Positions 34,512 through 56,594 of a stretch of DNA of 64,000 nt are shown here, piece by piece. The stretch is from positions 186,001 to 250,000 of the forward strand of contig JAMCYM010000002.1 of assembly GCA_023473665.1 (NCBI GenBank), in the 5' to 3' direction. The position numbers and the translations under genes are program-made. A model generated the notes under the pieces. It was not told the DNA's origin. It saw only the letters and a list, made by a program, of their open reading frames with translations, and ran no database searches. The stretch comes from Candidatus Marsarchaeota archaeon. Lineage in GTDB: Archaea > Micrarchaeota > Micrarchaeia > Micrarchaeales > Micrarchaeaceae. Each line of letters begins with the position of its first letter. The first letter of the stretch is position 1.

Positions 34512-34565
34512 TACGTTCGGGGATACCGCCGACTTTATCGGCGGAGAGGACCCGAACGTAAAGGT

Positions 34566-35369: not shown

Positions 35370-35407
35370 TTTCTAAACCCATCTTATCCTTTAAGGCAAG
35401 AATACCC

Positions 35408-35522
35408 CGACCTTTAGGTCGTGGATGAATTGCACATTTCGATACAATAAATACTATTTCTTTTCATGCGATATCGCGTTAATGGCAGGGTCGCAGACAC
35501 AACCTGCGACGCAATTCTGCCA
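35408..35522 (+). mobile_element. Left end and leader structure of IS200-type copy 2
   Basis: The hairpin CGACC-TTTA-GGTCG lies at 35408-35421. A nested stem follows: TGGCAG (35483-35488) with CTGCCA (35517-35522), and inside it GTCGCAG (35490-35496) with CTGCGAC (35504-35510). The layout matches copy 1, where the outer stem reads GGCGGCAG/CTGCCGCC, so paired bases changed together. Confidence 0.6.
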
Positions 35523-35535
35523 GAGACGTGATTAC

Positions 35536-35991
35536 ACGAATAGAGGAACGAATGCAACAAATAAAAACCAAACGGCCAATGACGTTGGCCATCGGTATAA
35601 CTGGCAGCACATTGTTTTTGTGACAAAATACAGGTACAAAATGTTCGGAAAACGGAAGACTATAGACGCAATACGTCGTGCATTTTACGAAGTTGCGAAG
35701 AGATACAACATGACCATAAAGGAATTGGCATTCGGGGAAGACTTTGCGCATGCACCTCTGGAAGTCAGCATCCCAAATACGATGTCGATTGCATACGCGG
35801 TGCAACTGCTGAAAGGATATTCATCGTATACCGTTTTCAAAGAGATCCCGTGTCACAGATTGCGATATCCACAGGGGCACTTCTGGAGTGCAGGATACAG
35901 CAACGGGAGTGTCGGTCCTCGCGACGAACAAACCGTTCAGAACTACATCCGCAGGCAGGACATTTCTGGACAACTGCATCTTGTCGTTTAA
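35536..35991 (+). pseudogene. Decayed IS200-type TnpA, copy 2
   Basis: The ~151-codon frame aligns throughout with copy 1 (YNWQHIVFVTKYRYK, FGEDFAHAPLEVS, NYIRRQD). The HUH motif is HAP instead of HVH, removing one metal ligand. The codon at the position of the copy 1 ATG is ACG (35536-35538). The frame itself is open. An upstream ATG at 35482 lies inside the leader stem and would add unrelated residues. The gene is therefore probably inactive, although the tyrosine remains. Confidence 0.75.
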
Positions 35992-36207
35992 TCACGCAGA
36001 CACTGCAGCTTTTAAGTCGCAGAGGAGGGTCATCTTCATAATTTACAACATTCATGTTGTTCATGTCTCTATTGCCTAATAGCCGTCTTAGAGATGAATT
36101 CAAAAATTCGTGATAATAATCTGTGCCTATTTAATCTCATGCGTAAACGCATATAGGTTTCACAGACCTGTGCTAATAAAGCTTTTTCTTACAAGAACAA
36201 AATAATC

Positions 36208-37416: not shown

Positions 37417-37420
37417 ATTA

Positions 37421-38566: not shown

Positions 38567-39573
38567 TTTGCCACTCTGTCAAGTGCCTTAAGCAGTGCTT
38601 TTCTTACTCTGTTAGGTCTCCATTGTTCAACTATAGCCCTCTCAGCCAGATTGTATCCTATCCTGTACCCGATAGAAGCCGATGGTGAAATGACCATTGA
38701 CATCAGCATATCTATGTTTACTCTTCGTTTTAGTGTACCAAGATCAATCTTGTAATCCGTAAACCTATCTATATAATACGAGAATAGGACACTTTCTGCT
38801 GTGAGAGTTGGTGATACGTTCTTCACAGAGAGGCTTCTTGAGTTGGATTCCTGCCACGGATGATATACCAATGCTCCGTCAAACCAAACTGTTGTATATC
38901 CTCTTTTGATAGCTTCCAGAGACGCCGCCTGTTCGTTGCCTATTGCTCTTTTTGTATACCCGGGCAACTTAAAACCATGGAGCGCATCCTTCTTCCAACT
39001 CATATTGACACCATGTTGCTTCAGCGTATTTATCATGTTATATCTCTTCCCTGTATCGACGAGCATTCCAGATTTGCCCGGATACATTCCATACTCTTTG
39101 AAATTTTCGCCTATAGGCCTGTCGATTATCGTATGTTTGTTCATTCTCCACATTTGACGATGCAGCATATCTGTCATCCATGATACACTTGCATCTTTTG
39201 CTCTGTCGTCCACAAGGCCTGTAGCTACACCTACTTCAGGATGCTTGTTGTGAAGCTCTACATGATTTTTAACAAAATTTCTTGACACCTGGGCGTCATC
39301 ATCTGTATTTATTATTATATCTCCGTCAGCTTTTGCATACGCTATGTTTATAACATCTGCAGCCATCCCTTTTGTTTGTGCTACCAACTCTATGTTCAAT
39401 GATCTGTACTCTTTTATTCTATCTATAACAGATTTTTTTGCCCTGTCTAATTTATAAATCACTAAAATGTTAAAATTTTTATACGACTGCTGCTTAAGAC
39501 TACTTAATAAGCTAAATATACAGTTTCTATCCCCATAAGTCGGCAGGGTTATTGTCACATCCATGAAAGCCAA
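38563..39573 (-). CDS. Family 2 glycosyltransferase
   Basis: The 336-residue GT-A protein begins VTITLPTYGDRNCIFSLLSSL and has IINTDDDAQVSRNFVKNH (metal-binding D-D-D/A), a YPGKSGMLVD acceptor loop and GNEQAASLEAIKRGYTTVWFDGALVYHPW, a GT2 closing motif. No membrane helices are evident. It is the first gene of the three-gene minus-strand operon. The donor cannot be assigned. Confidence 0.8.
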   Translation of the reverse strand: MAFMDVTITLPTYGDRNCIFSLLSSLKQQSYKNFNILVIYKLDRAKKSVIDRIKEYRSLNIELVAQTKGMAADVINIAYAKADGDIIINTDDDAQVSRNFVKNHVELHNKHPEVGVATGLVDDRAKDASVSWMTDMLHRQMWRMNKHTIIDRPIGENFKEYGMYPGKSGMLVDTGKRYNMINTLKQHGVNMSWKKDALHGFKLPGYTKRAIGNEQAASLEAIKRGYTTVWFDGALVYHPWQESNSRSLSVKNVSPTLTAESVLFSYYIDRFTDYKIDLGTLKRRVNIDMLMSMVISPSASIGYRIGYNLAERAIVEQWRPNRVRKALLKALDRVAK

Positions 39574-39757
39574 CTCAAAGATTTTCTGCTAAATGTGCTA
39601 TTCAATTCGATAATTGATTTGACACGGTCAGGTTCTTATACTTTTCTTCTATATCTATTGGAAGCAGATATACGTCTGTTGCTGATAGCATTGTATGATA
39701 ACTAAACGAAAATTTAGGATGCACATCTAGACGTAGACCGGACCTTTAGCTGATTAT

Positions 39758-42016
39758 ATGGATTGGATGACTAAAAAGAAATTATATTATTTGGTTGCAG
39801 CATTTATCGTGTTTATTTTCATATATGGTTTATATGTCCATTTTGGGTATCTGCTTGACGGAGACAGGGCCTTAAGTAATTCGAATCTGTTGGAACAAGA
39901 CTATCTATCACTTTTTACATGGTCAGCTTTCAATTATTCTGGGCTTATAAATATTACCGGTTCGATTCCGGATATTTTAATTCTTTTGTTGTTTTTGATA
40001 CCATATAAGCTTAGCATTATCTTTGGGACTATCGTAGGCTATGCCTTCTATGCATTCGTAGGCTTAGCGGGGATGTTTTATCTGGTATACGAACTGACTG
40101 GCGGGTATTCACACCGTATTAGATATTTCAGTTCTGTTGTTGCTTCTGTTATATTCTCTTTTCCAATATATTTACCTTTTGGAGCCGTCGCCTTCTTACC
40201 TTGGGTGTTTCTCTTTACAAAACGGCTTTTTTACGATAAAAACAGCAAAACGGCATTAAATAAACTCAACCTGTTCGGCTTAGTTATTTCTATAGTATTT
40301 TTCATTTCAGTTGGTGGCGATTCAGATATAATACTTGACTCTATAATTTTAGCTTTTTTAGGTGTTTTAACCTTGTTTTTTGTAGGCAAAGGAGAGCACA
40401 TCCGTACTCTAAAATATATTCTTTTGATTACTCTGCTTTCTATAGCTATTAGTGCACCATGGTTGATTGCATCTTACATATTTACAAACCATGTGGCACA
40501 CGGCTTCTTTAGCAGTTCTAAGGGCCTTTTGGGTATATTTGGTCTGAATTCGATAGAATCATTACTAGCATTTGGACCTGGTGAATCTTCTGTGTCAATA
40601 CCAAATATTTATACGGAATTGATATTGCTGACCATTCTTTTAATATCATTATCATCTTTTGCCTATATCAAGAAAGGTAACAAAAATCGTGGTATGATTT
40701 TGTCTATTCTGATAATGTATATTTTCATGGTTGGTCTTGCTACTACAATATTGGTGCCGTTTGGCGCCGTGTTTTCCAGCATATCTTCTATATTTCCTTA
40801 TTTACTAACATTGCGGTATGTTTATACCGCGACGCACTACGTTTTTATTTTCCTTGTAGCTACACTTTTTGGACTTGGTATAGCATATATAATGCACAGG
40901 TCAAACAAAAAGAAGGTCCTTCTTATCACTTTCTTTACATTGCTTTCAGTTGTAATAATCAGCTATTTGTATATTCTTGATTACATTCCAATCGCTATGT
41001 CTTCAGTACCATCTAGCATACCCCAAGATGTAAACATACCACAACATGTGTTCCAGATAGCGAATTACATAAACCTACAACATGGTCTTTTTACCATTGC
41101 TACAATACCAGTAGATTCGTCGTGGCAATTGACAACATGGTATGCAGGAGTTAGCGTTTATTCTTCATTGATAAACAAACCAGTCTATACTGGTGGCTAC
41201 TCTTTCTACAGTGAAATTTTTTTCCCAGTCACTGAAAATGAATATTTTGATGCTGCAGAAACGATCCAAAAAGACAACATGACAGGCATTAAAATATCGA
41301 ACCTGCTTGGTGTGTTCGGTATACACTATCTGATTGTGCAGGGCGACGCCCTGAACTATAGTGTATGTGATGGTTGCTACGTGCCTCCGTTCAATAAGAC
41401 GCAAATGAGGAATAACCTAAATGGAGCTGAGAATATCAGCCTTGTAGGCGAATACGGTAATTCGAGCCTATATGTAAACAACAACTATGACCCATTGGTC
41501 TACGCTGCCGGCATCGAGAACCTTGATACCGCCTCTTACTCTAAAATTTCTAGTGCAATAGAAAATGAAACATTTGATATACAAACCGAGGCGATTTATT
41601 CAACCTCTGAATACGGCCTATTCAATAGTACGGGCAAGATGAATGTCACCCCAATAGTTGGATTCTCGCAGCCTGAAATACAATTCTCCCAAGATACGCC
41701 AACCCATGTGACTGTTCATGTGCTGAACGCTACCACTCCATTCTATCTAGTCTTCCGCGAGACTTACGATCCGTATTGGCATGCCTATTATTCAAACGGC
41801 CCAGCTCTGCCGCAGAACGACCACATCTCTGTCAACGGCTTTGCCAACGCATGGTACATGAACAAGACCGGAAACTACACTGTCACCCTGTACTACACTC
41901 CGCAGACCATCGCATGGATCTCGTGGGCTGTGAGCTTCGCTGCCCTCGGTGTCACATGCTACATAGGCTTCCTAGGATACAGACAGTACAAACAGCAGAG
42001 GGGGCGCAGCCGGTAG
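39758..42016 (+). CDS. Large polytopic membrane protein, GT-C / YfhO-like
   Basis: The 752-residue protein has a membrane helix at 9-29, at least ten more hydrophobic segments to ~410, then a soluble, sequon-rich domain (~425-715) and one last helix (~720-742). The early outer loop (GYLLDGDRALSNSNLLEQDYLS) carries acidic residues as in GT-C transferases and YfhO-type proteins that act with lipid-linked sugars outside the membrane. A role in transferring or decorating a glycan is inferred. Its 3' end regains the higher GC composition of the flanking chromosome. Confidence 0.62.
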   Translation: MDWMTKKKLYYLVAAFIVFIFIYGLYVHFGYLLDGDRALSNSNLLEQDYLSLFTWSAFNYSGLINITGSIPDILILLLFLIPYKLSIIFGTIVGYAFYAFVGLAGMFYLVYELTGGYSHRIRYFSSVVASVIFSFPIYLPFGAVAFLPWVFLFTKRLFYDKNSKTALNKLNLFGLVISIVFFISVGGDSDIILDSIILAFLGVLTLFFVGKGEHIRTLKYILLITLLSIAISAPWLIASYIFTNHVAHGFFSSSKGLLGIFGLNSIESLLAFGPGESSVSIPNIYTELILLTILLISLSSFAYIKKGNKNRGMILSILIMYIFMVGLATTILVPFGAVFSSISSIFPYLLTLRYVYTATHYVFIFLVATLFGLGIAYIMHRSNKKKVLLITFFTLLSVVIISYLYILDYIPIAMSSVPSSIPQDVNIPQHVFQIANYINLQHGLFTIATIPVDSSWQLTTWYAGVSVYSSLINKPVYTGGYSFYSEIFFPVTENEYFDAAETIQKDNMTGIKISNLLGVFGIHYLIVQGDALNYSVCDGCYVPPFNKTQMRNNLNGAENISLVGEYGNSSLYVNNNYDPLVYAAGIENLDTASYSKISSAIENETFDIQTEAIYSTSEYGLFNSTGKMNVTPIVGFSQPEIQFSQDTPTHVTVHVLNATTPFYLVFRETYDPYWHAYYSNGPALPQNDHISVNGFANAWYMNKTGNYTVTLYYTPQTIAWISWAVSFAALGVTCYIGFLGYRQYKQQRGRSR

Positions 42017-42058
42017 TCACTTGTTCGTCGTAGTGCCGTTGAACCATACTATCAGCAG

Positions 42059-43551: not shown

Positions 43552-46500
43552 TTGCCTAAAAGCGTGCCGCCAAAACCGCGCAGTCGCGCGCAGAGCGCAG
43601 TAGAGTATCTTGTGACGTACGGCTGGGCCATGCTGCTCATCGGCGTCGTCATCTCGCTTCTTTACCTTTATCTGATAGTGCCTGGCGTAGTGGCATCGAA
43701 CTCGTGCAGCTTCCTGTCCGGAGCATACTGCGTGGACCTTGTCCTCGGCTCCAACGTCACAACCCATTCATCGGTCATGGCTCTATTCATAACGAACACG
43801 CAGCCGTACCCGATAAAGGACCCGTCGCTCTATACGAGCATAAACGGCGTCAACAGCACTGTATCGGAATGCAAGCCGGATTACGTGCTTGCAGGCGGCT
43901 CAATGATTTGCAGCCTGCCAATCACCCAGACAACGACCCTCGGGCAGTTCCTGTCCGGTGACTTATACCTTAACGCAACTTATTGCGGGCTCTCATCAAC
44001 TCCAGGCACGTGCGTGCAGGCGCCAAACGAGACCTACAAGGGCAGCTTCGGCACGCATGCACAGCCCCTTGTCTCGACGTCATCTTCAATAACGCTTACT
44101 GCTGTGAACACAACCCATCCTGGCAATCCAGCCGATGGCGCGGAGGATCCCCTCACGGCTACTGTCAAGCTGCTCGGCTATCCGCTGTCCGGCGCCACTG
44201 TGAACTTCACAGCTGCATTCCAGAGCAACGGCACCAATGCCGTGCCGCCGTATTCGCTTGAATCGCAGTATGCCACAACAGGCCCCAACGGCGTTGCGAG
44301 CGACTACATAGCGGGCACTACAGTAGGCAACGTCATCGTTACCGCATACTATGCGGGGCTCACCTCGAACGCGCTCATAACCTTCGTGCCCGTAACCAAG
44401 GTGACGTTCTCAGTCTCTACGGCTTCGGCGCTATCCGGCAGCGCCGCAACCCTTGCAACGATAGACGGCACCAACTACGATTACAACCAGCTTACTTCCA
44501 CCACATTCGACTGGGGCTGCGGCACTACGCATACCTATTCTTTCGTTAGCACTCCCTCAATCAGCACCGGCACGCGCCTGTCCTTCCAGCACGACGTGAT
44601 AAATGGAGTTACATACTCGTCTTCATCAGGCACCATTACAGTAAACTGCGCGCTCTACAACCAGACGCAAACTGCGGTATACCAGACGCAGTACGAGTAC
44701 ATACCGTCGATAAACCCATCCAGCGGCGGCACAGTGTCACCGACACAGGGATGGTATGCGGTCGATTCTGGTTTCAGGTTGAGCGAAACGGCCGCAGCTA
44801 ACTACACATTCAAGAACTGGACAGGCACCGGCGTAGGCAGCTACACTGGCACGCTGCCGAGCCCTGCAGTGCTGATGGGCGGCCCTGTGACTGAGACCGC
44901 GAACTACTACGCTCCTGTTACGATCACGCTTGCGAATCCTTCGCTCAGCGGCACCTCCAACACGATAGTGACGGTAGACGGCGTTGCGTACAATGCGACG
45001 CAGCTGCCTGCCGCTATAACAGCAAGCTACGGCTCTATAATAACGTACAGCTACAGCTCTACCATCGCTGGCTCAACCGGCACCCAGTATGTCAATCCTA
45101 CAGTGAGCGGCTGCGGCGTAAGTTCCGCGAGCGGCTCATTCTCCGCTACGGGCTCGTGCACCCTCAGCGCCTCGTACACTACACAATACTACCTGACGAT
45201 GGCGGCCTCACCGAGCTCCGACGGCACAGTCTCGCCCTCCAGCGCATGGTACAACTCAGGCTCGCCTGTTACAATAAGCGAGACTCCCAACTCTAACTAC
45301 ATATTCCAGAGCTGGTCAGGCAGCGGCACCGGCAGCTACTCCGGCACGACGGCCAGCACCGGCATAACTATGAGCGCGCCGATAACCGAGACTGCGGACT
45401 ACGAGGCGCCGCTCACCATGACATTCGCCTCATCGTCGCTGACCGGCTCGACGGCCAACGTGGTCGAGGTCAACAACGTATATTACACAGCCTCGCAGCT
45501 CCCGGCCAGCATCTCGGTGGCCCCCGGCTCCACTGTCACATACTCATACGCATCGACCTTGTCTGGCGGCACGGGCACGCAGTACATCACGCCAACAGTG
45601 AGCGGCTGCGGCCAGACGAGCGCATCTGGCAGCTTCACTGCCAGCTCGGCCTGCACCGTCACTGGCTCGTACACCACGCAGTACCAGCTCACGATGGCTG
45701 GAGTGAGCCCATCAGGCGCTGGCACTGTCACGCCTGCGGCAGGCACCTACTGGTACAATTCCGGCTCTGCGGTGACCATAAGCGAGACGCCCTCCGGCAG
45801 CTACACGTTCAATGACTGGACGGGAAGCGGCACGGGCAGCTACACGGGCACCTCGGCGAGCACGAGCATAACGATGAGCGCCCCGATCACAGAAACGGCG
45901 AACTACTACACCTCGGTGACGGTCACCTTCACATCGTCGTCCATGACCGGCACCTCAGGCACTGTGGTGACGGTCGACGGCACGGCCTACACAGCCTCGC
46001 AGCTCCCGGCCAGCATACCGGTGACATACGGTTCTACAGTGACATACTCATACACGTCGCCTGTTTCTGGCGCATCGGGCACGCAGTACGCATACTCGTC
46101 GCTGAGCGGCTGCGGCCAGACGGCGCAGAGCGGCAGCTTCTCAGCAACGTCGGCCTGCACCGTCACTGGCTCGTACACTACCCAATATTATCTCACCATG
46201 GCGGTGAGTCCTTCTGGAGGCGGAACCGCCTCTCCATCCAGCGGCTGGTACAACTCCGGCTCTGCGGTGACGATAAGCGAGACTCCCGCCACGAACTACG
46301 TCTTCAAGAACTGGACGGGCTCAGGGACAGGGTCGTACTCCGGCACGACGGCCAGCACAGGCATAACCATGAGCGCGCCAGTCACCGAGACGGCCAACTA
46401 TTACGCGCCCGTGGTAATCACGTTCACATCGTCGGCGATGAGCGGCACCTCGGCGAATGTGGTGACGGTCGACGGCACGAACTACGCATACTCGAGCCTC

Positions 46501-49221
46501 CCTGAGGCCCTGACAGTGCCCTACGGCTCCACTGTCACATACTCATACACTTCGCCTGTTTCTGGCGCGTCAGGCACCCAGTATGTATATTCGTCGCTCA
46601 GCGGCTGCTCCCAGACGGCGCAAAGCGGCAGCTTCACCGCAACATCGACATGCACGATAACCGCATCATACCTTACTCAGTACTACCTCACGATGGCCGT
46701 GAGCCCGTCAGGCGGCGGCACAGTGACGCCCTCCAGCGGCTGGTACAACAGCGGCGCGAGCGTGGGCATAAGCGAAAGCCCATCGACGAACTACGTCTTC
46801 GACACCTGGACATGCACAGGCACGGGCTGCTACTCCAGCACCGGCACGAGCACGACCATAACGATGAACAACCCCATCACAGAAACGGCAACCTACTACG
46901 CGCCCGTCACGATAACGTTCACTTCCTCTGCAATGTCCGGAACCTCCGGCACAGTGGTCACGGTCGACGGCACTGGAGTGGCATACTCCAGCTTCCCATA
47001 CTCGATAACCGTGCCGTACAGTTCATCGGTGGCATACTCATACTCATCGCCCATAGCAGGCGCGTCAGGCACGCAATACGTTTATTCGTCGGTGAGCGGC
47101 TGCGGCCAGTCTGCGCAGTCCAACAGCTTCAGCGCGACATCAGCATGCACGGTGACCGCCTCGTACACTACCCAATACTATCTCACCATGGCTGTAAGTC
47201 CCTCAGGCGGCGGCACCGTCACACCAGCGAGCGCCTGGTACAACAGCGGCTCTGCTGTCACGATAAGCGAAACGCCTGCGACGAACTACGTCTTCGAAGA
47301 CTGGGCAGGCAGCGGCACCGGCAGCTACTCCGGCACAACGGCCAGCACAGGCATAACCATGAGCGCACCTATAACGGAGACGGCGACCTACTATCCGCCA
47401 CCCACGCTAACGTTCACCTCGTCCAGCATGTCAGGCACCTCGGCAACGGTCGTCACGGTCGATGGTACTAACATCGCCTATTCAAGCTTCCCGTACTCGA
47501 TAATCGTGCCCTACGGCAGCACGGTCACATACGCGTATTCGTCGCCCATTGCGGGCGCATCGGGAACGCAGTATGCCTATTCTTCGCTCAGCGGCTGCAG
47601 CCAAACCGCGCAGTCAGGCAGCTTCAGCGCGACATCTACCTGCACGGTGACAGCATCATATACCACCCAGTACTACCTTACGATGGCGGGCGTCAGCCCC
47701 TCCGGAGCAGGCAGTGTCTCTCCTGCAAGCGCATGGTACAACAGCGGCTCCGGAGTCACCATAAGCGAAAGTCCTGCGACGAACTATGTTTTCAAGAACT
47801 GGACAGGCTCGGGAACAGGATCGTATTCGGGCACCACCGCCAGCACCTCGATAACCATGAGCGCCCCGATCACCGAGACGGCCAACTACTATGCGCCGGT
47901 GACGATAACGTTCGCTTCGTCCAGTATGTCAGGAACATCCGCTACGGTGGTCACGGCAGACAGCACCAACTATGCCTATTCACAGCTCCCAGTAAGCATC
48001 ACAGTGTCGTACGGCAGCACGGTCACATACTCTTATGCGTCTTCTGTGGCAGGCGGCAGCGGCACACAGTATGCCTATTCGTCGCTGAGCGGCTGCGGCC
48101 AGACGGCGCAGTCGGGCAGCTTCAGTGCGACGTCCACCTGCACGGTCACTGGCTCGTACACCACCCAGTACTACCTCACGATGGCGGTCAGCCCCTCAGG
48201 CAGTGGCTCAGTCTCTCCAGGCAGCGGCTGGTATAACAGCGGCTCAGGTGTTGGAATAACGGCATCTCCAAGCAGCGGTTACTCCTTCAATGACTGGACA
48301 GGCAGCGGCACCGGCAGCTATTCCGGCACCACATCCAGCACCAGCATAACTATGGGTGCGCCAATCACAGAAACCGCATACTACCTCACGTGCACCGGTA
48401 CAAATTCCACTACAATAACGAGCTACTGGTCAGTTACAGCGCCAGCTTCTGCTACTGTATCTTACACAATGTATGGAGGAGGAAGCGGCGGCAGCTCCTC
48501 CACCGACGCAGGCAGTTCAGGAAGCGAAAGCACTGGCTCTTTCAATATCGCTGCAGGGCAAACTTTAACAGTTTATGTCGGAGGTGGCGGAGGCGGTAGC
48601 AGTGGCGGAGGCGGTGGCGGAGGCGGAAGCGGCTATTATGGTGGGGGTGGTGGAGGCTATGGCCAAGGCGCTGGTGGTGGAAGCTCTGCAATACTTGTTG
48701 CAGGAAGTGTTACAGCATGTGCTAATGGGGGCCCAGGTTATCCTACTTGCATTGGAGGAGCCAAAACCTGTACTTCCCCTGGCGGCGGTACATGCAGCAG
48801 CGGTGGAACTGGAGGAACTGTCGAGTTTTTTAATACGCGTACTGGTGCAATAACTTACAGTAATGGGTATACAGGGGGCTTTAATTCCGGTGGCAACGGA
48901 GTAGATACTTATAGTCCGGGAGTTGGTGGTTATGGAGGGTCAGGTGGCACAGGGGGAAATGGAGAGCCTGCCACTTCCGGCGACAGTGCCGCTGGAGGGG
49001 GAGGGGGCTACGGTGGAGGCGGTGGAGGTAGCAGTAATAGCGCCAACGCTGCTGGCGGAAGCGGCGGGAGCAACGGTGGCAATGGAGTGGAACCTGCGCT
49101 ATCTGGCTATCCGGGCGGAGTCGGCACAGGTGGCGACACCGGGGAATACGGTTCACCGTGGGTTGGTGGTAATGGTGGTAGCGTATCGCTCAACTGGACA
49201 GGTTCTTCATGCCCTGTATGA
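43552..49221 (+). CDS. Giant pilin-anchored adhesin with ~8 InlB-like repeats and glycine-rich tail
   Basis: The 1889-residue protein starts at TTG 43552 with a class III signal peptide (PRSRA before Q-S-A-V-E-Y-L, then a hydrophobic helix ~22-46). The head (~47-200) matches the pilin-like protein at 9943, then comes an Ig-like segment (~190-285). From ~380 to ~1610, about eight repeats carry WYNSGSxVTISE, a W-x-G-SGTGSYSGT turn, TETANYY and YGSTVTYSY motifs of Listeria-Bacteroides-type repeats. The last ~270 residues are a Gly/Ser-rich tail with scattered cysteines. After prepilin processing the helix would hold a long stalk on the cell surface, with the tail as tip. The tail has an alternative at 53813-55141. 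Confidence 0.8.
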   Translation: MPKSVPPKPRSRAQSAVEYLVTYGWAMLLIGVVISLLYLYLIVPGVVASNSCSFLSGAYCVDLVLGSNVTTHSSVMALFITNTQPYPIKDPSLYTSINGVNSTVSECKPDYVLAGGSMICSLPITQTTTLGQFLSGDLYLNATYCGLSSTPGTCVQAPNETYKGSFGTHAQPLVSTSSSITLTAVNTTHPGNPADGAEDPLTATVKLLGYPLSGATVNFTAAFQSNGTNAVPPYSLESQYATTGPNGVASDYIAGTTVGNVIVTAYYAGLTSNALITFVPVTKVTFSVSTASALSGSAATLATIDGTNYDYNQLTSTTFDWGCGTTHTYSFVSTPSISTGTRLSFQHDVINGVTYSSSSGTITVNCALYNQTQTAVYQTQYEYIPSINPSSGGTVSPTQGWYAVDSGFRLSETAAANYTFKNWTGTGVGSYTGTLPSPAVLMGGPVTETANYYAPVTITLANPSLSGTSNTIVTVDGVAYNATQLPAAITASYGSIITYSYSSTIAGSTGTQYVNPTVSGCGVSSASGSFSATGSCTLSASYTTQYYLTMAASPSSDGTVSPSSAWYNSGSPVTISETPNSNYIFQSWSGSGTGSYSGTTASTGITMSAPITETADYEAPLTMTFASSSLTGSTANVVEVNNVYYTASQLPASISVAPGSTVTYSYASTLSGGTGTQYITPTVSGCGQTSASGSFTASSACTVTGSYTTQYQLTMAGVSPSGAGTVTPAAGTYWYNSGSAVTISETPSGSYTFNDWTGSGTGSYTGTSASTSITMSAPITETANYYTSVTVTFTSSSMTGTSGTVVTVDGTAYTASQLPASIPVTYGSTVTYSYTSPVSGASGTQYAYSSLSGCGQTAQSGSFSATSACTVTGSYTTQYYLTMAVSPSGGGTASPSSGWYNSGSAVTISETPATNYVFKNWTGSGTGSYSGTTASTGITMSAPVTETANYYAPVVITFTSSAMSGTSANVVTVDGTNYAYSSLPEALTVPYGSTVTYSYTSPVSGASGTQYVYSSLSGCSQTAQSGSFTATSTCTITASYLTQYYLTMAVSPSGGGTVTPSSGWYNSGASVGISESPSTNYVFDTWTCTGTGCYSSTGTSTTITMNNPITETATYYAPVTITFTSSAMSGTSGTVVTVDGTGVAYSSFPYSITVPYSSSVAYSYSSPIAGASGTQYVYSSVSGCGQSAQSNSFSATSACTVTASYTTQYYLTMAVSPSGGGTVTPASAWYNSGSAVTISETPATNYVFEDWAGSGTGSYSGTTASTGITMSAPITETATYYPPPTLTFTSSSMSGTSATVVTVDGTNIAYSSFPYSIIVPYGSTVTYAYSSPIAGASGTQYAYSSLSGCSQTAQSGSFSATSTCTVTASYTTQYYLTMAGVSPSGAGSVSPASAWYNSGSGVTISESPATNYVFKNWTGSGTGSYSGTTASTSITMSAPITETANYYAPVTITFASSSMSGTSATVVTADSTNYAYSQLPVSITVSYGSTVTYSYASSVAGGSGTQYAYSSLSGCGQTAQSGSFSATSTCTVTGSYTTQYYLTMAVSPSGSGSVSPGSGWYNSGSGVGITASPSSGYSFNDWTGSGTGSYSGTTSSTSITMGAPITETAYYLTCTGTNSTTITSYWSVTAPASATVSYTMYGGGSGGSSSTDAGSSGSESTGSFNIAAGQTLTVYVGGGGGGSSGGGGGGGGSGYYGGGGGGYGQGAGGGSSAILVAGSVTACANGGPGYPTCIGGAKTCTSPGGGTCSSGGTGGTVEFFNTRTGAITYSNGYTGGFNSGGNGVDTYSPGVGGYGGSGGTGGNGEPATSGDSAAGGGGGYGGGGGGSSNSANAAGGSGGSNGGNGVEPALSGYPGGVGTGGDTGEYGSPWVGGNGGSVSLNWTGSSCPV
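44690..48380 (+). repeat. Tandem ~490-500-base repeats inside the adhesin gene
   Basis: Unit starts (the TQY-x-LTMA segment or its first, degenerate form) fall at about 44695, 45184, 45679, 46170, 46677, 47168, 47669 and 48164, giving eight units. Similarity is high at both protein and DNA level, so slippage or unequal recombination could change copy number. Confidence 0.85.
47985..48074 (+). repeat. 90-base identity block, expressed copy
   Basis: Bases 47985-48074 are identical to the complement of 55047-55136 in the silent cassette. Weaker similarity continues for about 300 more bases, then the tails differ entirely. The two copies are inverted and the reading frame is the same in both. 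Confidence 0.9.
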
Positions 49222-49318
49222 ATGTATCTACTTACACGTATTGCTGCATATTGATAAGCACAGTCGTGTCGAGGCCATAAAAACGCCTTGCAAGAGCTCT
49301 GATTGCGATAGTGGTACT

Positions 49319-49420
49319 ATGGCAAGGAGCGCGATGAGCAAGAAAACCAACCCCGGCTTGCTTGTGTTTGAATTCATGAGCCTGTTCTGGGCTGATTCTA
49401 TTTCTATAAATCGATGTTAG
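49319..49420 (+). pseudogene. Truncated copy A of the four-helix protein gene
   Basis: The first ~13 codons and the ~50 bases before them closely match the intact gene at 52954 (MARSAMSKKTNPG). The frame then departs and stops after 33 codons. Truncation lies just before the hairpin that precedes the first ATPase gene. Confidence 0.75.
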
Positions 49421-49445
49421 ATAATTATCAAAAATGATAAGTATC
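49420..49445 (+). repeat. Conserved hairpin before ATPase 1
   Basis: GATAATTATCA, loop AAAA, then TGATAAGTATC form an 11-position stem with one mismatch. The equivalent before ATPase 2 (51363-51388) has the same shape, and the fourth pair is A-T here and G-C there. About 90 further bases downstream are also shared between the two loci. Confidence 0.7.
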
Positions 49446-49580
49446 GGTGCAAGAAAGCCAGGTAGAGGCCTGTGCGGATCACAGATATTATGCCTATCAG
49501 CATTATTCTCTGGAAAATAATATCTTGTCGGCAGTGGGGGAATCCGCAAAGGCAGGTAGAAAGAACTGCCTTAACCAAAG

Positions 49581-49629
49581 CCTTATATATTTATCTTTAT
49601 TAATACATAATAAAGATTTATTAATAAAG
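49581..49629 (+). promoter_or_regulatory. Promoter with two palindromes before ATPase 1
   Basis: A TATA-like ccttatatatttat run is followed by TCTTTATTA-(5)-TAATAAAGA (49594-49616) and the palindrome TTTATTAATAAA (49617-49628), ending at the ATG. Both could bind a dimeric repressor. Confidence 0.55.
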
Positions 49630-51108
49630 ATGATAGGGATGGAGGGCGGAACAAGCTTTGTCGATCGCACCATGGAACTTGCCGCGCTTGGTGATGCCTA
49701 TTCAAGGAAGTCGTCCTTGGTGGTGATATACGGCCGGCGAAGGCTCGGCAAGACCTCGCTCGTTAAGCGGTTCATGGAGGGCAGGCGCGGAGTGTACTTC
49801 CTGTTCACCAAAGAACCGGAGCATGACCAGCTCTACAGGCTAGCGAGGGCAGTAGGCAAGGCGATTGGGAGCAGAAGGCTGGAAGACTTCGGAGCGTCGA
49901 GCTTCGAGGACCTGTTCGCAGAAATAGGCGAATCCTGCAAGAGCGAAAAGCTGGTGCTGGCGCTCGATGAATTCCCATACCTAGCAAGCCAGGATCCTAC
50001 TATACCGTCAATCTTCCAGAAGATATGGGACGAGTACCTGAAAGGCTCGAATGTTATGCTTGTGCTGACAGGCTCGAGCGTGGGCATGATGCGCAGCGAG
50101 GTGCTTAGCTATTCCGCGCCGCTGTACGGCAGGGCCACAGCCATACTTCACCTTAAGCAGATGGGCTTCAAGGACGTGAGCGCGCTGATGCCGGCAGGCA
50201 TGGGTTTCGAGGACAGGCTTATGCTGTACTTCATGTTCGGCGGCGTGCCGGCATATTATGCTGCGCTCTACCAAGGAGGCAAGGCGAAGAGCTATACGAT
50301 AGAAAGGGCTATGGAAGCGGTTCTGGCCGAAGGCGCCATATTCGCAGAAGAGCCGTCCGTCATGCTTTCGGAAGAGGTTACGAACGATGCAAGGTATCTC
50401 ATAATACTGTCGCTGCTTGCAGAGGGCGTCAACAAGCCGAGCGAGATCGCATCAAGGCTGAATATAGCGCAGAGCAACCTCCAGAAGTATCTTACCGTGC
50501 TGGAAGGCATAGGCGTAGTAGAGAGGGAATTTCCTGTGACAGAAGCTAGGAAGAGCAGGTCGAAACGCGGCATCTACGCCATAAGCGACAATTTTACGTT
50601 CTTCTATTTTTACGTACTTAGGAAGATAACGGCAGATTTACGTGCACAGCCAGCTCAGGCCGCAATTGAGGCAATCAACTTGCTCGGGCGCGCAGCTCCT
50701 AAAAGATTCGAGCTGCTTGTGCGCGAGGTGGTGTGGTCGCTCTCCGGCAGCGGCAGCCTTCCATTCACCGCCTTCAGCGTAGGAAGATGGTGGGGGCGCA
50801 ACCATAGCAAACCAAAAGGGAAGGACGAGGAGGAGATAGACATAATGGCGCTGAACCCCGAAACCAGGGATATGCTGGTTGGCGAGGCCGAATGGCGGAA
50901 CAGAAAGATGGACATTTCCGATTACATGTCATTGAAAGAGAAAGCCAAAGCAGTAGAATGGAATGATGGCGACAGGAGCGTTTATTACGCGCTCTTCTCA
51001 AAGGCAGGCTTCACAGAAGGCATGGAAAAGATGGCGAAAGAAGAGGGCGTGATGCTCTTCGACCTCGATGCTATTGAGCGCGCGCTTGCTGGCAAGAGCA
51101 CTGCATGA
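49630..51108 (+). CDS. Archaeal ATPase_2-type ATPase with DUF234-like nuclease-fold C-terminus
   Basis: The 492-residue protein has Walker A GRRRLGKT (35-42), Walker B LVLALDEFPYL, an arginine-rich sensor region (LTGSSVGMM, then SAPLYGRATAIL) and a winged helix (KPSEIASRLNIAQSNLQKYL). Its C-terminal part contains DEEEIDIMAL ... VGEAEWRNRKM, the D/E-x-K-like core of DUF234. These STAND-related ATPases are expanded in archaea; their function is poorly known, often linked to mobile DNA or regulation. ATG 49630 was chosen over a frame from 49447 because palindromes and TATA lie between. A stem-loop overlaps its stop. Confidence 0.8.
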   Translation: MIGMEGGTSFVDRTMELAALGDAYSRKSSLVVIYGRRRLGKTSLVKRFMEGRRGVYFLFTKEPEHDQLYRLARAVGKAIGSRRLEDFGASSFEDLFAEIGESCKSEKLVLALDEFPYLASQDPTIPSIFQKIWDEYLKGSNVMLVLTGSSVGMMRSEVLSYSAPLYGRATAILHLKQMGFKDVSALMPAGMGFEDRLMLYFMFGGVPAYYAALYQGGKAKSYTIERAMEAVLAEGAIFAEEPSVMLSEEVTNDARYLIILSLLAEGVNKPSEIASRLNIAQSNLQKYLTVLEGIGVVEREFPVTEARKSRSKRGIYAISDNFTFFYFYVLRKITADLRAQPAQAAIEAINLLGRAAPKRFELLVREVVWSLSGSGSLPFTAFSVGRWWGRNHSKPKGKDEEEIDIMALNPETRDMLVGEAEWRNRKMDISDYMSLKEKAKAVEWNDGDRSVYYALFSKAGFTEGMEKMAKEEGVMLFDLDAIERALAGKSTA

Positions 51109-51129
51109 TTATCCTGCCGTTGGATAATC
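51107..51129. terminator. Hairpin at the end of ATPase 1
   Basis: GATTATCC, a 7-base loop and GGATAATC form a perfect eight-pair stem starting inside the TGA stop codon. There is no T-run after it, so it may stabilise or process the transcript rather than terminate it. Confidence 0.45.
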
Positions 51130-51259
51130 CTATGGATGGATAAATTGCAGCACGGAAGCATCTCCGCCTTGGCTAAGTGCTCATGGGGCTTTCCGATCCG
51201 GTGAGAATGCAGCAAGCCTTAAAAACCTTGCCAGAGTGCTATATGCGAAGAGTGATGGG

Positions 51260-51352
51260 ATGGCAAGGAGCGCGATGAGCAGAAAAACCAACCCCAGCGT
51301 GCTTGTACTGAACTTGTGGGCGCCTGTCCTGAAGCTGTTTCGCATCCATTAG
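51260..51352 (+). pseudogene. Truncated copy B of the four-helix protein gene
   Basis: The frame reads MARSAMSRKTNPSV then diverges and ends after 30 codons. Upstream, 'gccttaaaaaccttgccagag' is closely related to the region before the intact gene at 52954, indicating that promoter and start were copied together. The next ATPase module begins right after. Confidence 0.72.
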
Positions 51353-51362
51353 ATTAACGCTA

Positions 51363-51388
51363 GATGCTTATCAAAAATGATAGGCATC
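51363..51388 (+). repeat. Conserved hairpin before ATPase 2
   Basis: GATGCTTATCA, loop AAAA, TGATAGGCATC: 11 pairs with one T-G. It corresponds to the hairpin at 49420-49445, with a base-pair-preserving difference. Confidence 0.7.
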
Positions 51389-51580
51389 GATACACGGGAA
51401 AGTCAGGTAGGGGTCGGCACAGGAAAGCCTTAAACATTATGCCTGTCAGCATTATCCTCCGAAAAATAATATTTCGTGGGCAGCGGATGGATAGAGCGAA
51501 ATTTTACAACAATGCTATCCATCTATTGGTGTCATGTGAGTACGAAAGATTTAAATATTCGTACTGTTGAAGTACCTATT

Positions 51581-52837
51581 ATGGAGATAGGCAGCGCGCT
51601 CACCGACCTTAACGACTGGTGGCTCGACGGCAGTATCAGCGACAGCCTGGCCAAAAGCTACAGGAGGCACGCGTTCGCAGAATTCAGGCGGCTTTTCGAT
51701 GCATACCGGGAGGTTTTGGTCATCACAGGGCTCAGGAGGGTGGGCAAGACCACCATCATCTACCAGCAGATATCCGACCTGCTGAAGGAGCACGCGCCCC
51801 GTGAAATACTGTACTTCACGTTCGACTACGGGGCCGTGCCAATAACGGACATACTCGATGCCTACAGGAAGCTCACTGACGTGGATTGGAAGCACCAGAA
51901 ATTCTTCCTCTTCCTAGACGAGGTCCAGAAGCTCGCCGGATGGAGCTCGCAGGTGAAGATGCTCTACGATTCTTTCCCCAACATAAAGATCGTGGTTTCC
52001 GGGTCAGCCTCCCTCGAGCTGGAAAAGGGGGCTGCCGACAACCTTGCGGGCCGCCATTTCCTGGTGGGCATCAAGCCACTCTCGCTGATCGAGTTCTATG
52101 AGCTGAAGCATGAGAGGCACATCGAGAGGCCGGCCCTGTTCAGGGACGAGCTGGACGCAGAAGTGGACGCGTATATAACGAAGCCATTTCCCGAAACGGT
52201 AAAATGGAGGAGCTATAGGGATGTGGCCGCATACGTGCGCGAAAATGTCGTTTCCAAGATAGTGAGGTCCGACCTGCCCGATTCGTTCAAGGGCGTGAAT
52301 TTCTTCCTGCTGGAGAAGATGCTGGATGTTTTTTACTCCAATCCGGGCATGCTGCTCAGCGTGGACGAGAACGTGAAGGCATTCGGCGTGAGCAAGACCA
52401 CTTTCGAAAACCACCTCTTCTTCCTCGATTTTGCGAAGCTCATAAGGATCGTAGGCAACTTCAGGGGTTCGACGGTGGCCGCGTCGAGGAAAGGAAAGAA
52501 GGTATATCCGTATGATATTTCGCTCGCATTGGCGTTCAACCCTGACATAGGCGCGGGCAGCATACTGGAGACCAAGGTGGCCTCTGTTCTGGCTGCAAAG
52601 GCATACTGGCGGCATGCCGACGCAGAGGTCGATTTCGTAGTTTCAGACAGGCACAGGAAAGTAGGCGTAGAGGTCAAAGCGTCAAAAAATTTCAGCAAAT
52701 CTGATCTCTCCGGGCTGCACAGGCTGTCTGATAGGTTCGGGATGCGAGAGGTGTTGATTTACCGGGGGAATACTGGAAGAAGCGGCAGGGTCCGCCTTAT
52801 AAATTTTACCGATTTTCTGATTAAGGAAGGGCTGTGA
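51581..52837 (+). CDS. AAA_14 / DUF4143-type ATPase
   Basis: From ATG 51581 the 418-residue protein has Walker A GLRRVGKT (50-57), Walker B FFLFLDEVQKL, a sensor-like VVSGSASLELEKG and a second half typical of DUF4143 (SKTTFENHLFFLDFAKLI, then DAEVDFVVSDRHRKVGVEVKAS with a D-x-n-E-x-K nuclease-like core). It is a different family from ATPase 1, although both are preceded by the same ~200-base module. A TATA-like agatttaaatatt run (~51547-51559) lies ~25 bases ahead, so the message is probably leaderless; the frame from 51476 is rejected for that reason. Confidence 0.8.
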   Translation: MEIGSALTDLNDWWLDGSISDSLAKSYRRHAFAEFRRLFDAYREVLVITGLRRVGKTTIIYQQISDLLKEHAPREILYFTFDYGAVPITDILDAYRKLTDVDWKHQKFFLFLDEVQKLAGWSSQVKMLYDSFPNIKIVVSGSASLELEKGAADNLAGRHFLVGIKPLSLIEFYELKHERHIERPALFRDELDAEVDAYITKPFPETVKWRSYRDVAAYVRENVVSKIVRSDLPDSFKGVNFFLLEKMLDVFYSNPGMLLSVDENVKAFGVSKTTFENHLFFLDFAKLIRIVGNFRGSTVAASRKGKKVYPYDISLALAFNPDIGAGSILETKVASVLAAKAYWRHADAEVDFVVSDRHRKVGVEVKASKNFSKSDLSGLHRLSDRFGMREVLIYRGNTGRSGRVRLINFTDFLIKEGL

Positions 52838-52853
52838 GTGCAGGTGCCTGTCT

Positions 52854-52867
52854 GCAATCATGATTGC
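52854..52867. repeat. 14-base palindrome after ATPase 2
   Basis: GCAATCATGATTGC is a perfect palindrome about 20 bases after the ATPase 2 stop. It could be a protein-binding site or part of a transcript end. Confidence 0.4.
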
Positions 52868-52953
52868 GTTACCCAAAGCCGCCACAAGGCATGCGTGCGT
52901 CACAGGGCAAGCCTTAAAAGCCTTGCCAGAGCTCTGATTGCGATAGTGGTATT

Positions 52954-53343
52954 ATGGCAAGGAGCGCAATGAGCAAGAAAACAAACCCCGGCGTGTTCGC
53001 GCTGGAGCTCGTGGGAAGCCTGTTCTTCCTGTTCCTGGTTTACCTGATGGGCATGAACAGCATGCCGGTGAGCGTGGTGTTCAGCGGCACGGGCTCGTTC
53101 TGGCTGCCGGTGTTCGCTGGCGTCTCGATACTCGCCGCGATAGCGCTGTTCGTCTTCAGCTTCACCTACCTGGGAGAGCCGAAGATAATGGCGGGCGAGC
53201 GCACCAAGAACATGGGCCTGCAGCTGGCGATGGTGCTTGGCGTGACGTACTTCGCACTGACGATAGGCACGCCGTACTTCTTCGTCTCCCTGATAGGCTT
53301 CATACTGGCCCTGATAGGCGGAATACTGGGCTACAGGCTCTGA
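52954..53343 (+). CDS. Four-helix integral membrane protein, intact copy
   Basis: The 129-residue protein has a short basic start (MARSAMSKKTNPG) and four hydrophobic segments (about 14-34, 46-70, 85-102, 105-127) with a single hydrophilic loop (GEPKIMAGERTKN) in the middle. It is the complete version of a gene whose 5' ends are repeated at 49319 and 51260. A cttaaaagccttg element near 52915 may be the promoter. Function unknown. The repeated 5' ends suggest ATPase modules were inserted into copies of it. Confidence 0.7.
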   Translation: MARSAMSKKTNPGVFALELVGSLFFLFLVYLMGMNSMPVSVVFSGTGSFWLPVFAGVSILAAIALFVFSFTYLGEPKIMAGERTKNMGLQLAMVLGVTYFALTIGTPYFFVSLIGFILALIGGILGYRL

Positions 53344-53472
53344 AGTCAAGGCACTGGCCCTGCCTCCGGCAGGGCATTCTCTTTTTGGTTATTGGAGACC
53401 CCGATCTGTGCCAGGACTTGCCGCACTATGCTAAACGTTTTATATCTTAGCTGTCATATATTGGCGAGAAAC

Positions 53473-53694
53473 ATGAAGATGGAGATATACGGGTTTAAGG
53501 CCGATGTCCACAGGGACGGGAAGTGGTTCGTGGGCACGATCGACGAACTCCACGTCCAGGATCAGGCCAGGAGCTTGAGGGAGCTCGAGAGCGAGCTCAA
53601 GGATGCGGTAGACACCGCAGTCGAATTCCTTACTGAAAAGAGTATCGTCAAGACAAAATCGCCGGTGCTGAGAAGCCTGATCGCCAGGAACTAG
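53473..53694 (+). CDS. HicB-like antitoxin
   Basis: The 73-residue protein starts at ATG 53473 (MKMEIYGFKADVHRDG) and has the HicB partial-RNase-H-like pattern: a strand pair with DGKWFVGTIDELHVQDQA, then SLRELESELKDAVDTAVEFL. HicB antitoxins block the small RNA-binding toxin HicA. The frame from 53392 adds unrelated residues and is rejected. A HicA-like frame follows but is broken, so this antitoxin may be an orphan. Confidence 0.68.
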   Translation: MKMEIYGFKADVHRDGKWFVGTIDELHVQDQARSLRELESELKDAVDTAVEFLTEKSIVKTKSPVLRSLIARN

Positions 53695-53711
53695 GTGAGC
53701 ACATAGGCGCA

Positions 53712-53816
53712 CTGAGGCCTGTAAAACCGTTCAGGCTGCTTAAAGTGCTGCAGGAAGATTACGGGTTCTCGGCCAGGCAAAACTCTGATGATTTTATGCT
53801 CTTTTGGTTGGGTTAG
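53712..53816 (+). pseudogene. Truncated HicA-like toxin gene
   Basis: Codons from CTG 53712 read LRPVKPFRLLKVLQEDYGFSARQ, very like the first strand-helix-strand of HicA. Where HicA has K/R-G-S-H with the catalytic histidine, the frame continues NSDDFMLFWLG and stops at 53814. No ATG or GTG start is seen in frame. The break lies at the edge of the inverted adhesin cassette, whose own stop codon overlaps this one on the other strand. Confidence 0.6.
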
Positions 53817-55141
53817 GTGCAATGATAGCTATTCGACAAAGACGTATTTTGGTATGTTAATACCTGGCCTGAACCGCCTGAACCGCCTGCTTGTCCTATC
53901 GTGGAGGCTCCCCCTAAAGAGACATTATTTTGCGGTCCTCCACTACCGCCCGAATATGTGTAGATGCCTGGAGTATACCCTCCATTTCCGTAAACTATTA
54001 ATATACTCCCCCCGCCACCGCCGCCGCCACTAGCACCATCTGATGTGCCCTTGTCTGTAATAGTTTTACTATAAACATGTGTGCCATACTCTGCTTGCCC
54101 GATTTGTCCGCTTGCTCCTGCGGTGTTGATCGAACCAGTTATGCTAACGGTAAATCCTTGTATATATACGCCATAACCAGCAGCACCACCCGTGCCTCCA
54201 TCTCCTTCGCCAGTAACGCAGCCTGAGAATAAACAACTGCCTGCGCCGCCGCCTCCAGAGCCGCCATTTAAGTAGCCTGTCGGATTTGCTTCCACAGAAC
54301 CTACGAGAGATGAACTCAGCACAGGGGCCGGGGGTGTAGAACCGTTATTTCCGACCTGACCTGCCGCTGAGGTAAGACCCCCACTAACGCTCGTATTGCA
54401 TCCGTTAGCTCCGCCATATGTATTGCTACCGCCGCCACTGCCACCAGAGCCTCCATACGAGCTAGTAAACATATTACACCATGATGTCGTTGTGTTATAA
54501 CCGCCGGTGGGGTTAGTGTAAGCACCTGTGCTCAGGCTTTGCGTACCTGAATTAACTGCACCGTTAATATTGACATTCAGGAGGGCTTTAAGACCATAGC
54601 CGATGGTCGTTAGTGTGACACCGCTATCTACTGTTATATTGCAGGCCACAATATCGCCAGTTAAGGTTGTTCCCGAATTGTATATTACCACTGCGCTCGA
54701 ATTATCTAAGGAGGTAGGATTATATACTGGAGTTATATACCCTGCAGTTTCTGTGATCGGGGCGCTCATCGTTATGCTCGTGCTCGTTGATGTGCCGGAA
54801 TACGAGCCGGATCCCGAACCTGACCAGCTCTGGAATATATAACCGCTGCCAGGAGATTCGCTTATCCCGACTCCGGAGCCGCTGTTGTACCAGCCGCTGC
54901 CTGGAGAGACTGAGCCAGTTCCCGACGGACTTACTGCCATCGTTAGGTAGTACTGGGTGGTGTACGAGGCTGTGACAGTACATGACGACGAGGCAGTGAA
55001 GCTGCCTGACTGCGCACTCTGGCTGCAGCCGCTCAGCGACGAATATGCATACTGTGTGCCGCTGCCGCCTGCCACAGAAGACGCATAAGAGTATGTGACC
55101 GTGCTGCCGTACGACACTGTGATGCTTACTGGGAGCAGCAA
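53813..55141 (-). pseudogene. Silent adhesin-tail cassette (no start, no signal peptide)
   Basis: The 442-codon frame begins abruptly with LPVSITVSYGSTVTYSY, a near-identical copy of the last repeat of the adhesin at 43552, followed by one repeat-like unit and then a distinct Gly/Ser/Asn-rich tail ending SYHCT. The frame extends only nine codons further before a TAA (55168), with no plausible promoter, start or leader. It is therefore not a gene on its own but an in-frame alternative 3' end. Cysteines in the tail (CNTSVSGG, SCLFSGC) suggest a folded, exported domain. Inversion or gene conversion with 47985-48074 would fuse it to the stalk. Confidence 0.75.
55047..55136 (-). repeat. 90-base identity block, silent copy
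   Basis: This is the inverted partner of 47985-48074. Identity begins abruptly at 55136, four bases from a candidate recombinase core site. Confidence 0.9.
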
Positions 55142-55167
55142 ACAAGGTTTTCGAAGGAAGTTTGTTT
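55140..55167. other. Candidate tyrosine-recombinase core site
   Basis: AAACAAGGTT, an 8-base spacer TTCGAAGG, and AAGTTTGTTT (complement AAACAAACTT) give ten-base arms matching at 8 of 10 positions. Two imperfect inverted arms around a 6-8-base spacer is the usual layout of Xer/integrase core sites. It lies between the silent cassette and the recombinase gene. No second copy was found by eye inside the adhesin gene. Confidence 0.4.
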
Positions 55168-55242
55168 AGTTCTCATAAAATATCTTTTACAAAAAAACAA
55201 TCGCTTTAGCGGCTGGATGAATCTACACAATTATTAAGAACC

Positions 55243-55276
55243 TACAATATTGTAATGGTGTATAAATTTTTATATG
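55243..55276 (+). promoter_or_regulatory. Recombinase promoter with palindrome
   Basis: The perfect palindrome TACAATATTGTA (55243-55254) lies just upstream of a TATA-like gtataaatttttatat run (about 55258-55275). The start at 55314 follows by about 40 bases. The palindrome could be an operator. Confidence 0.5.
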
Positions 55277-55313
55277 CAGGTAAAAGGGTTTATAGGTTCA
55301 GGATAGTGATTGG

Positions 55314-56540
55314 ATGAGATATCCAGAGAATACTATGAGAGAAGTGGAAGCGCAGTTAGAGAGGATAAGTCACATCAAATGGGTGAGCGGCGGCAACATG
55401 GAACTGGCCCGAAAGTACGCTGACAGACTACTGGCGCTGGACAGGAACCCCAGGACCATCAGCAAGCACATCTATTACCTGAGGCGCATCCTGGAGCTCT
55501 CTCCCGCATTCGACTTTTCCAGGGCGAAGCGCGAGGACTTCGAGAAGCTTCTGCTCAGAATCAAGAGGCTCGGAGTTTCGGCCGCCGCCGAGTATGATTA
55601 CAAGAAGGTCTTGAAGTCGTTCATGAAGCAGGAGTTCGGCGACGGGGTTATGCAACCGGCCGCAGTGCAATGGATCAAGCTTTCGACCAAGGATTTCGGG
55701 AGGATAACGCCCTCCGATGTGCTGCGACCCGAAGAGGTTTTGCTGCTGATAGAGGCCGCAGGCAACAGCCGTGATCGGGCCCTCATCTCGCTCGGCTTCG
55801 AGGCGGGGCTGAGGAGCGGCGAGGTCGTTAACATGAGGGTAAGGGACGTCGACCTGGTATCGCAGCAGGCCTGGGTCACGGTCTCGGGCAAGACGGGCAT
55901 GCGGCGCATCCCAATCTTCGGCTCTGCGTTATATATAGCGCGCTACCTGGACGACTGCAGGCCCAGACTGAAACCTGACGACTGGCTCTGGCAGCGGCTG
56001 GTGCATGATCGTCGCGCGGGCCGCCTGGAAGCACCGGGCATGAACGCGATGCTGAAAAAGGTTGCCAGGGAGGCCGGCCTCGCCAAGCCCAAGGGCATCT
56101 GGTGGCATTTGTTGCGCCATTCCTCGGCAACCTACAACGCGAACAGGCTCAACGAGGAGCAGCTGCGGAATTTCTACGGCTGGGCCAAGGGCAGCCAGAC
56201 GCCATCGCTGACGTACGTGCACATGGCCGCAGAAGACGTCGCCAACGCGCTACGCAAGGCGAATGGGCTGAAGGCACATGAAGCATGGGAGAGATCTTTG
56301 CCTGTTAAGGAATGTCCCCGCTGCATGTTCGTGAACACAACTGATGCAAGGTTCTGCTCCAGATGCGGATCGGCGCTTGACGTAAATGCGGCTTTTCGGC
56401 AAGGGAAAGACGAAACTACTCTCGAGCGGCTTTTTGTCGAGTGGATGAAGAATCATGAAGATGTTAGAAACTGTGATACCAAACTGCCATATGAAAAAAG
56501 GCGGACGCGCATTGCCGGCAATGACAGTCTTCGATTATAG
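55314..56540 (+). CDS. Tyrosine recombinase/integrase with C-terminal zinc ribbon
   Basis: The 408-residue protein has a SAM-like N-terminal core-binding domain (~20-125) and a catalytic domain with R167 (GLRSGE), K193, H265-x-x-R268 (HLLRHS), W290 and the nucleophile Y301 (LTYVHM). All expected residues are present. A zinc ribbon follows (C334, C337, C348, C351). This architecture is common among archaeal XerC/D-like recombinases, which act on chromosomes or mobile elements. Its position beside the silent adhesin cassette suggests it may rearrange that cassette, or that it is the integrase of an element including it. Confidence 0.85.
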   Translation: MRYPENTMREVEAQLERISHIKWVSGGNMELARKYADRLLALDRNPRTISKHIYYLRRILELSPAFDFSRAKREDFEKLLLRIKRLGVSAAAEYDYKKVLKSFMKQEFGDGVMQPAAVQWIKLSTKDFGRITPSDVLRPEEVLLLIEAAGNSRDRALISLGFEAGLRSGEVVNMRVRDVDLVSQQAWVTVSGKTGMRRIPIFGSALYIARYLDDCRPRLKPDDWLWQRLVHDRRAGRLEAPGMNAMLKKVAREAGLAKPKGIWWHLLRHSSATYNANRLNEEQLRNFYGWAKGSQTPSLTYVHMAAEDVANALRKANGLKAHEAWERSLPVKECPRCMFVNTTDARFCSRCGSALDVNAAFRQGKDETTLERLFVEWMKNHEDVRNCDTKLPYEKRRTRIAGNDSLRL

Positions 56541-56594
56541 GATGATATTTAGACGAGCCCCTAGAGATTAAGATGAAGTGGCTCTATCATCCTA

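Follow-up and report, generated by a model that had tools for sequence, protein, structure and literature searches.

A silent, inverted tip cassette next to a giant pilin-like adhesin gene of a micrarchaeal genome, in a lineage of probably constant stalks and variable tips

Bacteria and some archaeal viruses are well known to switch the tips of their surface fibres. In the R64-type shufflon, the recombinase Rci switches the C-termini of PilV, and rci is located just outside the invertible segment. In systems of the pilS/pilE type, gene conversion draws on silent copies of a surface protein gene that are partial and lack a promoter. For cellular archaea, we know of no described tip switching in a pilus-like surface protein, and a literature search for such a case found none. 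A first-pass annotation of the DNA studied here had likewise known of no described archaeal pilin system built in this way. As a statement on archaeal precedents this passes over viruses: in phiH1, phiCh1 and ChaoS9 an invertible module has been described in which a tail-fibre gene is paired with an inverted partner that lacks a start, and switching of this module has been reported within the group (PMC6210493, PMC6471424). Int-pTN3 of Thermococcus nautili needs no fixed site and causes inversions between identical segments as small as 104 bp (PMC5495485; PMC8371274), and homologous recombination in Thermococcus kodakarensis is reported for 500 bp or more (PMC5495485). Here we analyze a 64,000-nt stretch (the window) of an archaeal genome of 0.78 Mb in three contigs, in which an adhesin gene is accompanied by an inverted fragment of a second one. 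All comparisons are based on assembled genomes, most of them MAGs.

The adhesin gene and its inverted silent cassette

The giant adhesin gene, labelled expressed, occupies 43552–49221 on the plus strand. Open reading frame, domain and signal calls identified an N-terminal class III signal segment (QSAVEYL, agreeing with QSAxEYL) with a hydrophobic helix, a stalk of divergent InlB B-type repeats (PF18998, eight stretches) and a Gly-rich C-terminal tip, tail A (48388–49221, plus strand). These features are those of a class III signal peptide pilin-like adhesin, and homologues of the N-terminus are present in 59 of 60 relatives. The window holds a second adhesin paralogue at 9943–12054, with an N-terminal part 64% identical to that of the main adhesin, one B-repeat and a Thr/Ser/Pro-rich C-terminus; the exact blocks common to the two genes are all 22 nt or shorter.

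The silent cassette lies about 6.4 kb past the expressed adhesin on the opposite strand (53813–55141, minus strand). It is an open frame of 442 codons with no internal stop and no signal peptide. Only a TTG, at the extreme edge of the homology, could serve as a start, so the earlier description of a cassette with neither start nor signal peptide is essentially right. The cassette consists of a stalk-repeat part, the right arm (54743–55136, minus strand), and a silent alternative Gly-rich tip, tail B (53813–54730, minus strand). The left arm is part of the last stalk repeat of the expressed gene (47985–48378, plus strand). The two inverted arms are 84% identical across 394 nt and in frame with each other, and their identity is unevenly distributed. 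The 90 nt at the outer edge are exact (47985–48074 against 55047–55136), and the remaining 304 nt, about 80% identical, carry all 62 mismatches; the first-pass annotation had reported just this pattern, with some 300 bases of weaker similarity beyond an identical in-frame block. The chance of a clean 90-nt run at the arm edge is P = 2e-8. Exact runs reach at most 33 nt among other pairs of stalk repeats and 34 nt between the cassette and the other repeats, and in the region of the block the other stalk repeats are 55–74% identical.

The block shows no change at 26 synonymous sites, next to an adjoining dS of 0.61. Because selection at the protein level cannot yield such a contrast, we take it from the sequences that the two arm copies exchanged DNA recently or that the DNA of the block is itself constrained. 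In the rest of the arm, dN/dS is 0.22, within the range of the live stalk repeats (0.09–0.28), and 38 of the 62 mismatches fall at third codon positions; the cassette has thus been coding for most of its history. When the two copies are joined in silico via the block, the frame stays open for 1918 codons and ends in tail B. A diversity-generating retroelement was considered and rejected: the genome has no match to PF00078 (reverse transcriptase), and the mismatches are mostly at third positions and without A-bias. An assembly artefact is unlikely, as tail B consists of unique sequence and has homologues elsewhere. Relatives of the cassette were not found in viral contigs, nor was a second assembly of the same species found among the genome contigs.

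Tails A and B have no similarity to each other, as the first-pass annotation had noted for the unrelated Gly-rich end of the cassette. In relatives, homologues of tail A (52–62% identical) and of tail B (36–46% identical) both make up the C-termini of other, full-length pilin-like proteins. Neither tail has a match in Pfam or PHROG. The AlphaFold model of tail B scored well (pLDDT 80.5, pTM 0.82), and a structure search with it returned no fold match of note. The low-confidence model of tail A (pLDDT 55.5) gave the ligand-binding glycine-rich domain of ALK/LTK as its best PDB matches, all weak (best E 1.7e-3), and glycine-rich phage fibre domains as its best, also weak, matches in a viral library. 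Both tails are outliers in GC3 (0.39 for A and 0.40 for B) against a stalk at 0.72, which resembles the genome, and a neighboring recombinase gene also at 0.72; the same step is present in a congener and in a further relative, G003. Since the GC3 of the tails is far below that of the stalk, the composition suggests that tips were imported onto a resident stalk. Elsewhere in the window, at 29600–42020, a run of genes has a GC3 of 0.29–0.41 against a window median of 0.64; at least some are glycosyltransferase-like, and the run looks like an imported island that ends just before the adhesin.

The recombinase gene and the rearranged neighborhood

A tyrosine recombinase gene adjoins the cassette, as had been noted before. 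It encodes 408 residues with a C-terminal zinc ribbon (55314–56540, plus strand; PF00589, E 1.5e-15), starts 172 nt beyond the cassette edge, just outside the putative invertible segment, and retains the R, K, HxxR and Y motifs; PF00589 matches no other gene of the 0.78-Mb genome. Its best matches are XerA proteins and integrases, and it is 32–33% identical to integrases of archaeal pleomorphic viruses (ThalV2, Geoglobus virus); NCBIfam models of fim-type invertases matched weakly, far under cut-off. Identity as the housekeeping XerA was rejected, the protein scoring far under the XerA cut-off and having homologues in just 14 of the 60 relatives. At the related loci, 15 of 19 recombinase genes follow a same-strand tRNA gene on its 3′ side at a distance of roughly 20–120 nt (three of these 15 starts being inferred from the match), and an inverted adhesin cassette accompanies none of the 19. 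At these loci (L078–L096), many of them near contig ends, the recombinase homologues come directly after tRNA genes on the 3′ side, and a second att copy is mostly not visible; the stretches examined showed no att duplicates at the tRNA genes except for a 27-nt repeat at one locus. The window has no tRNA gene, no tRNA fragment was found upstream of the recombinase, and the borders of the inserted segment carry no direct-repeat att sites of at least 12 nt.

By family and neighborhood, the comparison places the recombinase among the tRNA-site integrases, whose sequence family and catalytic motifs it has without an adjacent tRNA attachment site. It is the integrase of a mobile element, and probably a bystander or a helper in the building of the locus. 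A takeover as invertase is possible, because the tRNA is absent here and the cassette stands in its place.

The segment between the arms carries several unrelated genes, all on the plus strand: an ATPase_2/DUF234 gene (49447–51108) and an AAA_14/DUF4143 ATPase gene (51476–52837), both assigned by domain match, a 129-aa membrane protein (52954–53343) with a syntenic copy 91% identical in the congener, and a HicB-like antitoxin (53476–53694). Repeat comparison showed that the 5′ end of the 129-aa gene is present three times in the window (49281–49451 on the plus strand, 51222–51394 and 52916–53013) and once in the congener. The two truncated copies each precede one of the ATPase genes and come with a palindromic TTATCAAAAATGATAA-like element, upstream of the gene end in the case of 49281–49451. 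The pattern looks as if insertion or duplication had recurred at a single spot.

The congener (G001, whose syntenic contig belongs to a Candidatus Micrarchaeota MAG) shows a different arrangement. Its syntenic adhesin is 83% identical at the N-terminus and ends in propeller-like repeats, a third kind of tail. The adhesin is followed first by a decayed HicB-like fragment in tail-to-tail orientation to it, then by a 209-nt stalk scrap that includes an 85-nt exact copy of stalk repeat, and then by the orthologue of the 129-aa gene; at L138:7530–7856 the HicB-like fragment is frameshifted and fused to the scrap with its exact block. Relative to this contig, 53385–56594 of the window is an insertion. 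The tail-to-tail partner of HicB is the adhesin in the congener and the silent cassette in the window, so that tip and HicB seem to move as a pair, which is on the expressed side in the former and on the silent side in the latter. This fits inversion or transposition of a tip–HicB unit. One simple inversion does not interconvert the two loci, because the orientation of the 129-aa gene is unchanged. The comparison with relatives proposed earlier yielded other arrangements only, in the congener as in the remaining genomes.

Tip exchange in relatives and its candidate agents

In five relatives, paralogous adhesins are near-identical in their 5′ parts and unrelated in their C-termini: G003 (L182/L183), G011 (L199/L200), G030 (L184), G032 (L193/L194) and G034 (L201/L202). 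In the pairs measured, the first 330 residues are 91–98% identical, and the G030 genes are about 100% identical over 1.2 kb of DNA. Exact DNA blocks between the paralogues extend over 110 nt in G003, where the closest pair is inverted, 827 nt in G011, 1280 nt in G030, 545 nt in G032 and 135 nt in G034. None of the five genomes has a match to the window recombinase, and replacement of tips and homogenization of stalks thus do not need the recombinase. The common 5′ halves could in part be recent duplications with replaced tails. Judged from these genomes, the swapping of tips onto near-identical stalks is a real and common process in the lineage, which probably has a constant-stalk/variable-tip system throughout. 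Among the loci examined, the present genome and the congener alone had start-less fragments that lie outside intact genes.

The interpretation we favor, at roughly even confidence, is that of a silent tip cassette which, as a member of such a constant-stalk/variable-tip family, trades DNA with the live gene through general recombination. The cassette would represent the 3′ end, without a start, of another pilin-like adhesin, placed in inverted orientation at a distance of 6.4 kb from the expressed gene, and tail B would serve, now or until very recently, as a spare tip for the expressed stalk. DNA would pass between the copies through the stalk-repeat sequence that they have in common. General recombination is the likeliest agent, since constant stalks with swapped tips occur in the lineage where the recombinase is missing; it would act, presumably through a RadA-type enzyme, by gene conversion with an occasional crossover that inverts the 7-kb segment and swaps tails A and B. 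Conversion or inversion may be ongoing today, and the tails may bind something. Two facts count against this interpretation: an identity of 90 nt is short against the 500 bp or more of T. kodakarensis (PMC5495485), and an inverted fragment like the cassette was found in one of the 85 family genomes searched.

The cassette may also be inert, a truncated second copy of the adhesin that fell silent recently, was left behind when a hotspot rearranged and has no function at present; the identical 90 nt would then record one last conversion or the founding event itself. The debris nearby speaks for such a history, namely the three 5′-end gene copies and the decayed HicB with a stalk scrap at the syntenic place in the congener, as does the insertion of 53385–56594. 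A remnant would hardly be expected to keep 442 codons free of stops and frameshifts at a dN/dS like that of live repeats, or to have taken part in an exchange recent enough to leave 90 nt without a mismatch, and we consider this possible but on the unlikely side.

A dedicated site-specific switch, in which the recombinase inverts 47985–55136 via a site in the 90-nt block and so alternates tails A and B, is a still more doubtful proposal. The genome's one tyrosine recombinase, with its catalytic motifs in place, lies 172 nt from the cassette and outside the segment as rci does, no tRNA is left beside this integrase copy, and the identical block stands exactly at the edge of the homology. In phiH1, too, the start-less partner begins at its outer edge with an exact block, of 44 nt, beyond which the similarity is 70–80% (PMC6210493). 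Against a switch, the homologues of the enzyme reside mostly just 3′ of tRNA genes (15 of 19) and never beside inverted adhesin cassettes, the invertase models matched it only far under cut-off, and no dyad-symmetric core site was found inside the block. Moreover, site-specific exchange alone would not hold 90 nt identical, and similar identical blocks occur where this recombinase is missing. The most far-reaching form of the proposal, a reversible chromosomal tip switch in a cellular archaeon, in which a co-opted mobile-element integrase would invert 7 kb and alternate two unrelated tips on a giant stalk amid lineage-wide tip swapping, we likewise regard as unlikely. Of the shufflon-like tip switch put forward by the first-pass annotation, the recent exchange, the fit of the frames, the coding constraint and the swapping of tips in the lineage hold up; a dedicated invertase and a defined site find no support, the neighbor belonging to a tRNA-site integrase family and identical blocks being found in recombinase-free relatives as well. 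It is very improbable that the recombinase inverts between the blocks by recombining identical segments of about 100 bp as Int-pTN3 does: the 104-bp limit of that enzyme, of the same superfamily, is near the 90 nt here (PMC5495485; PMC8371274), but this ability is known for Int-pTN3, has no support from the recombinase's own family, and is not called for by relatives that show the same kind of exchange without a recombinase.

The relatives hint at a broader pattern of constant, near-identical stalk halves with unrelated tips that are compositionally foreign in some genomes. This pattern makes the diversification of surface contacts directly testable in existing long-read metagenomes. The host archaea are tiny and probably partner-dependent, and surface contacts are what the tips would diversify.

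Comparison with known switching systems

In the R64-type shufflon, as in the window, a pilin-like constant N-terminal part is combined with swappable tips in an inverted silent cassette, in frame with the expressed gene, and the recombinase lies outside. The window differs in having one cassette and not several, in the short conserved repeat site, which was not found here, and in its enzyme, which by its matches is of an integrase rather than the Rci type; inversion, moreover, is only putative in the window. With pilS/pilE-type systems, the locus has in common a promoterless partial copy that contains a block identical to the expressed copy, while its silent copy is inverted and has a wholly different tail. 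The tRNA-targeting archaeal integrases, those of pleomorphic viruses included, are of the same sequence family as the window recombinase, which differs from them in that an adhesin fragment stands where the tRNA would adjoin.

The Int1 modules of phiH1, phiCh1 and ChaoS9 match the window in having an active repeat-containing fibre gene and a tyrosine recombinase adjoining a start-less inverted partner with shared repeats, and in phiH1 the agreement extends to the exact outer-edge block (44 nt) and the 70–80% similarity beyond it (PMC6210493). These modules differ in that the protein is a viral tail fibre, that the recombinase is inside the segment, and that switching is reported there and conjectured here. 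The viral recombinase and that of the window, which lies outside its segment, are weakly similar (32% over 62 aa, a 26-bit local similarity), and the invertible segment is 3.5 kb in the viruses against 7.1 kb in the window, the latter carrying unrelated genes. With the enzyme and the site as candidates only, the anatomy of the window is, by analogy, like that of a working switch, because phiH1-type modules and Int-pTN3 offer matching precedents.
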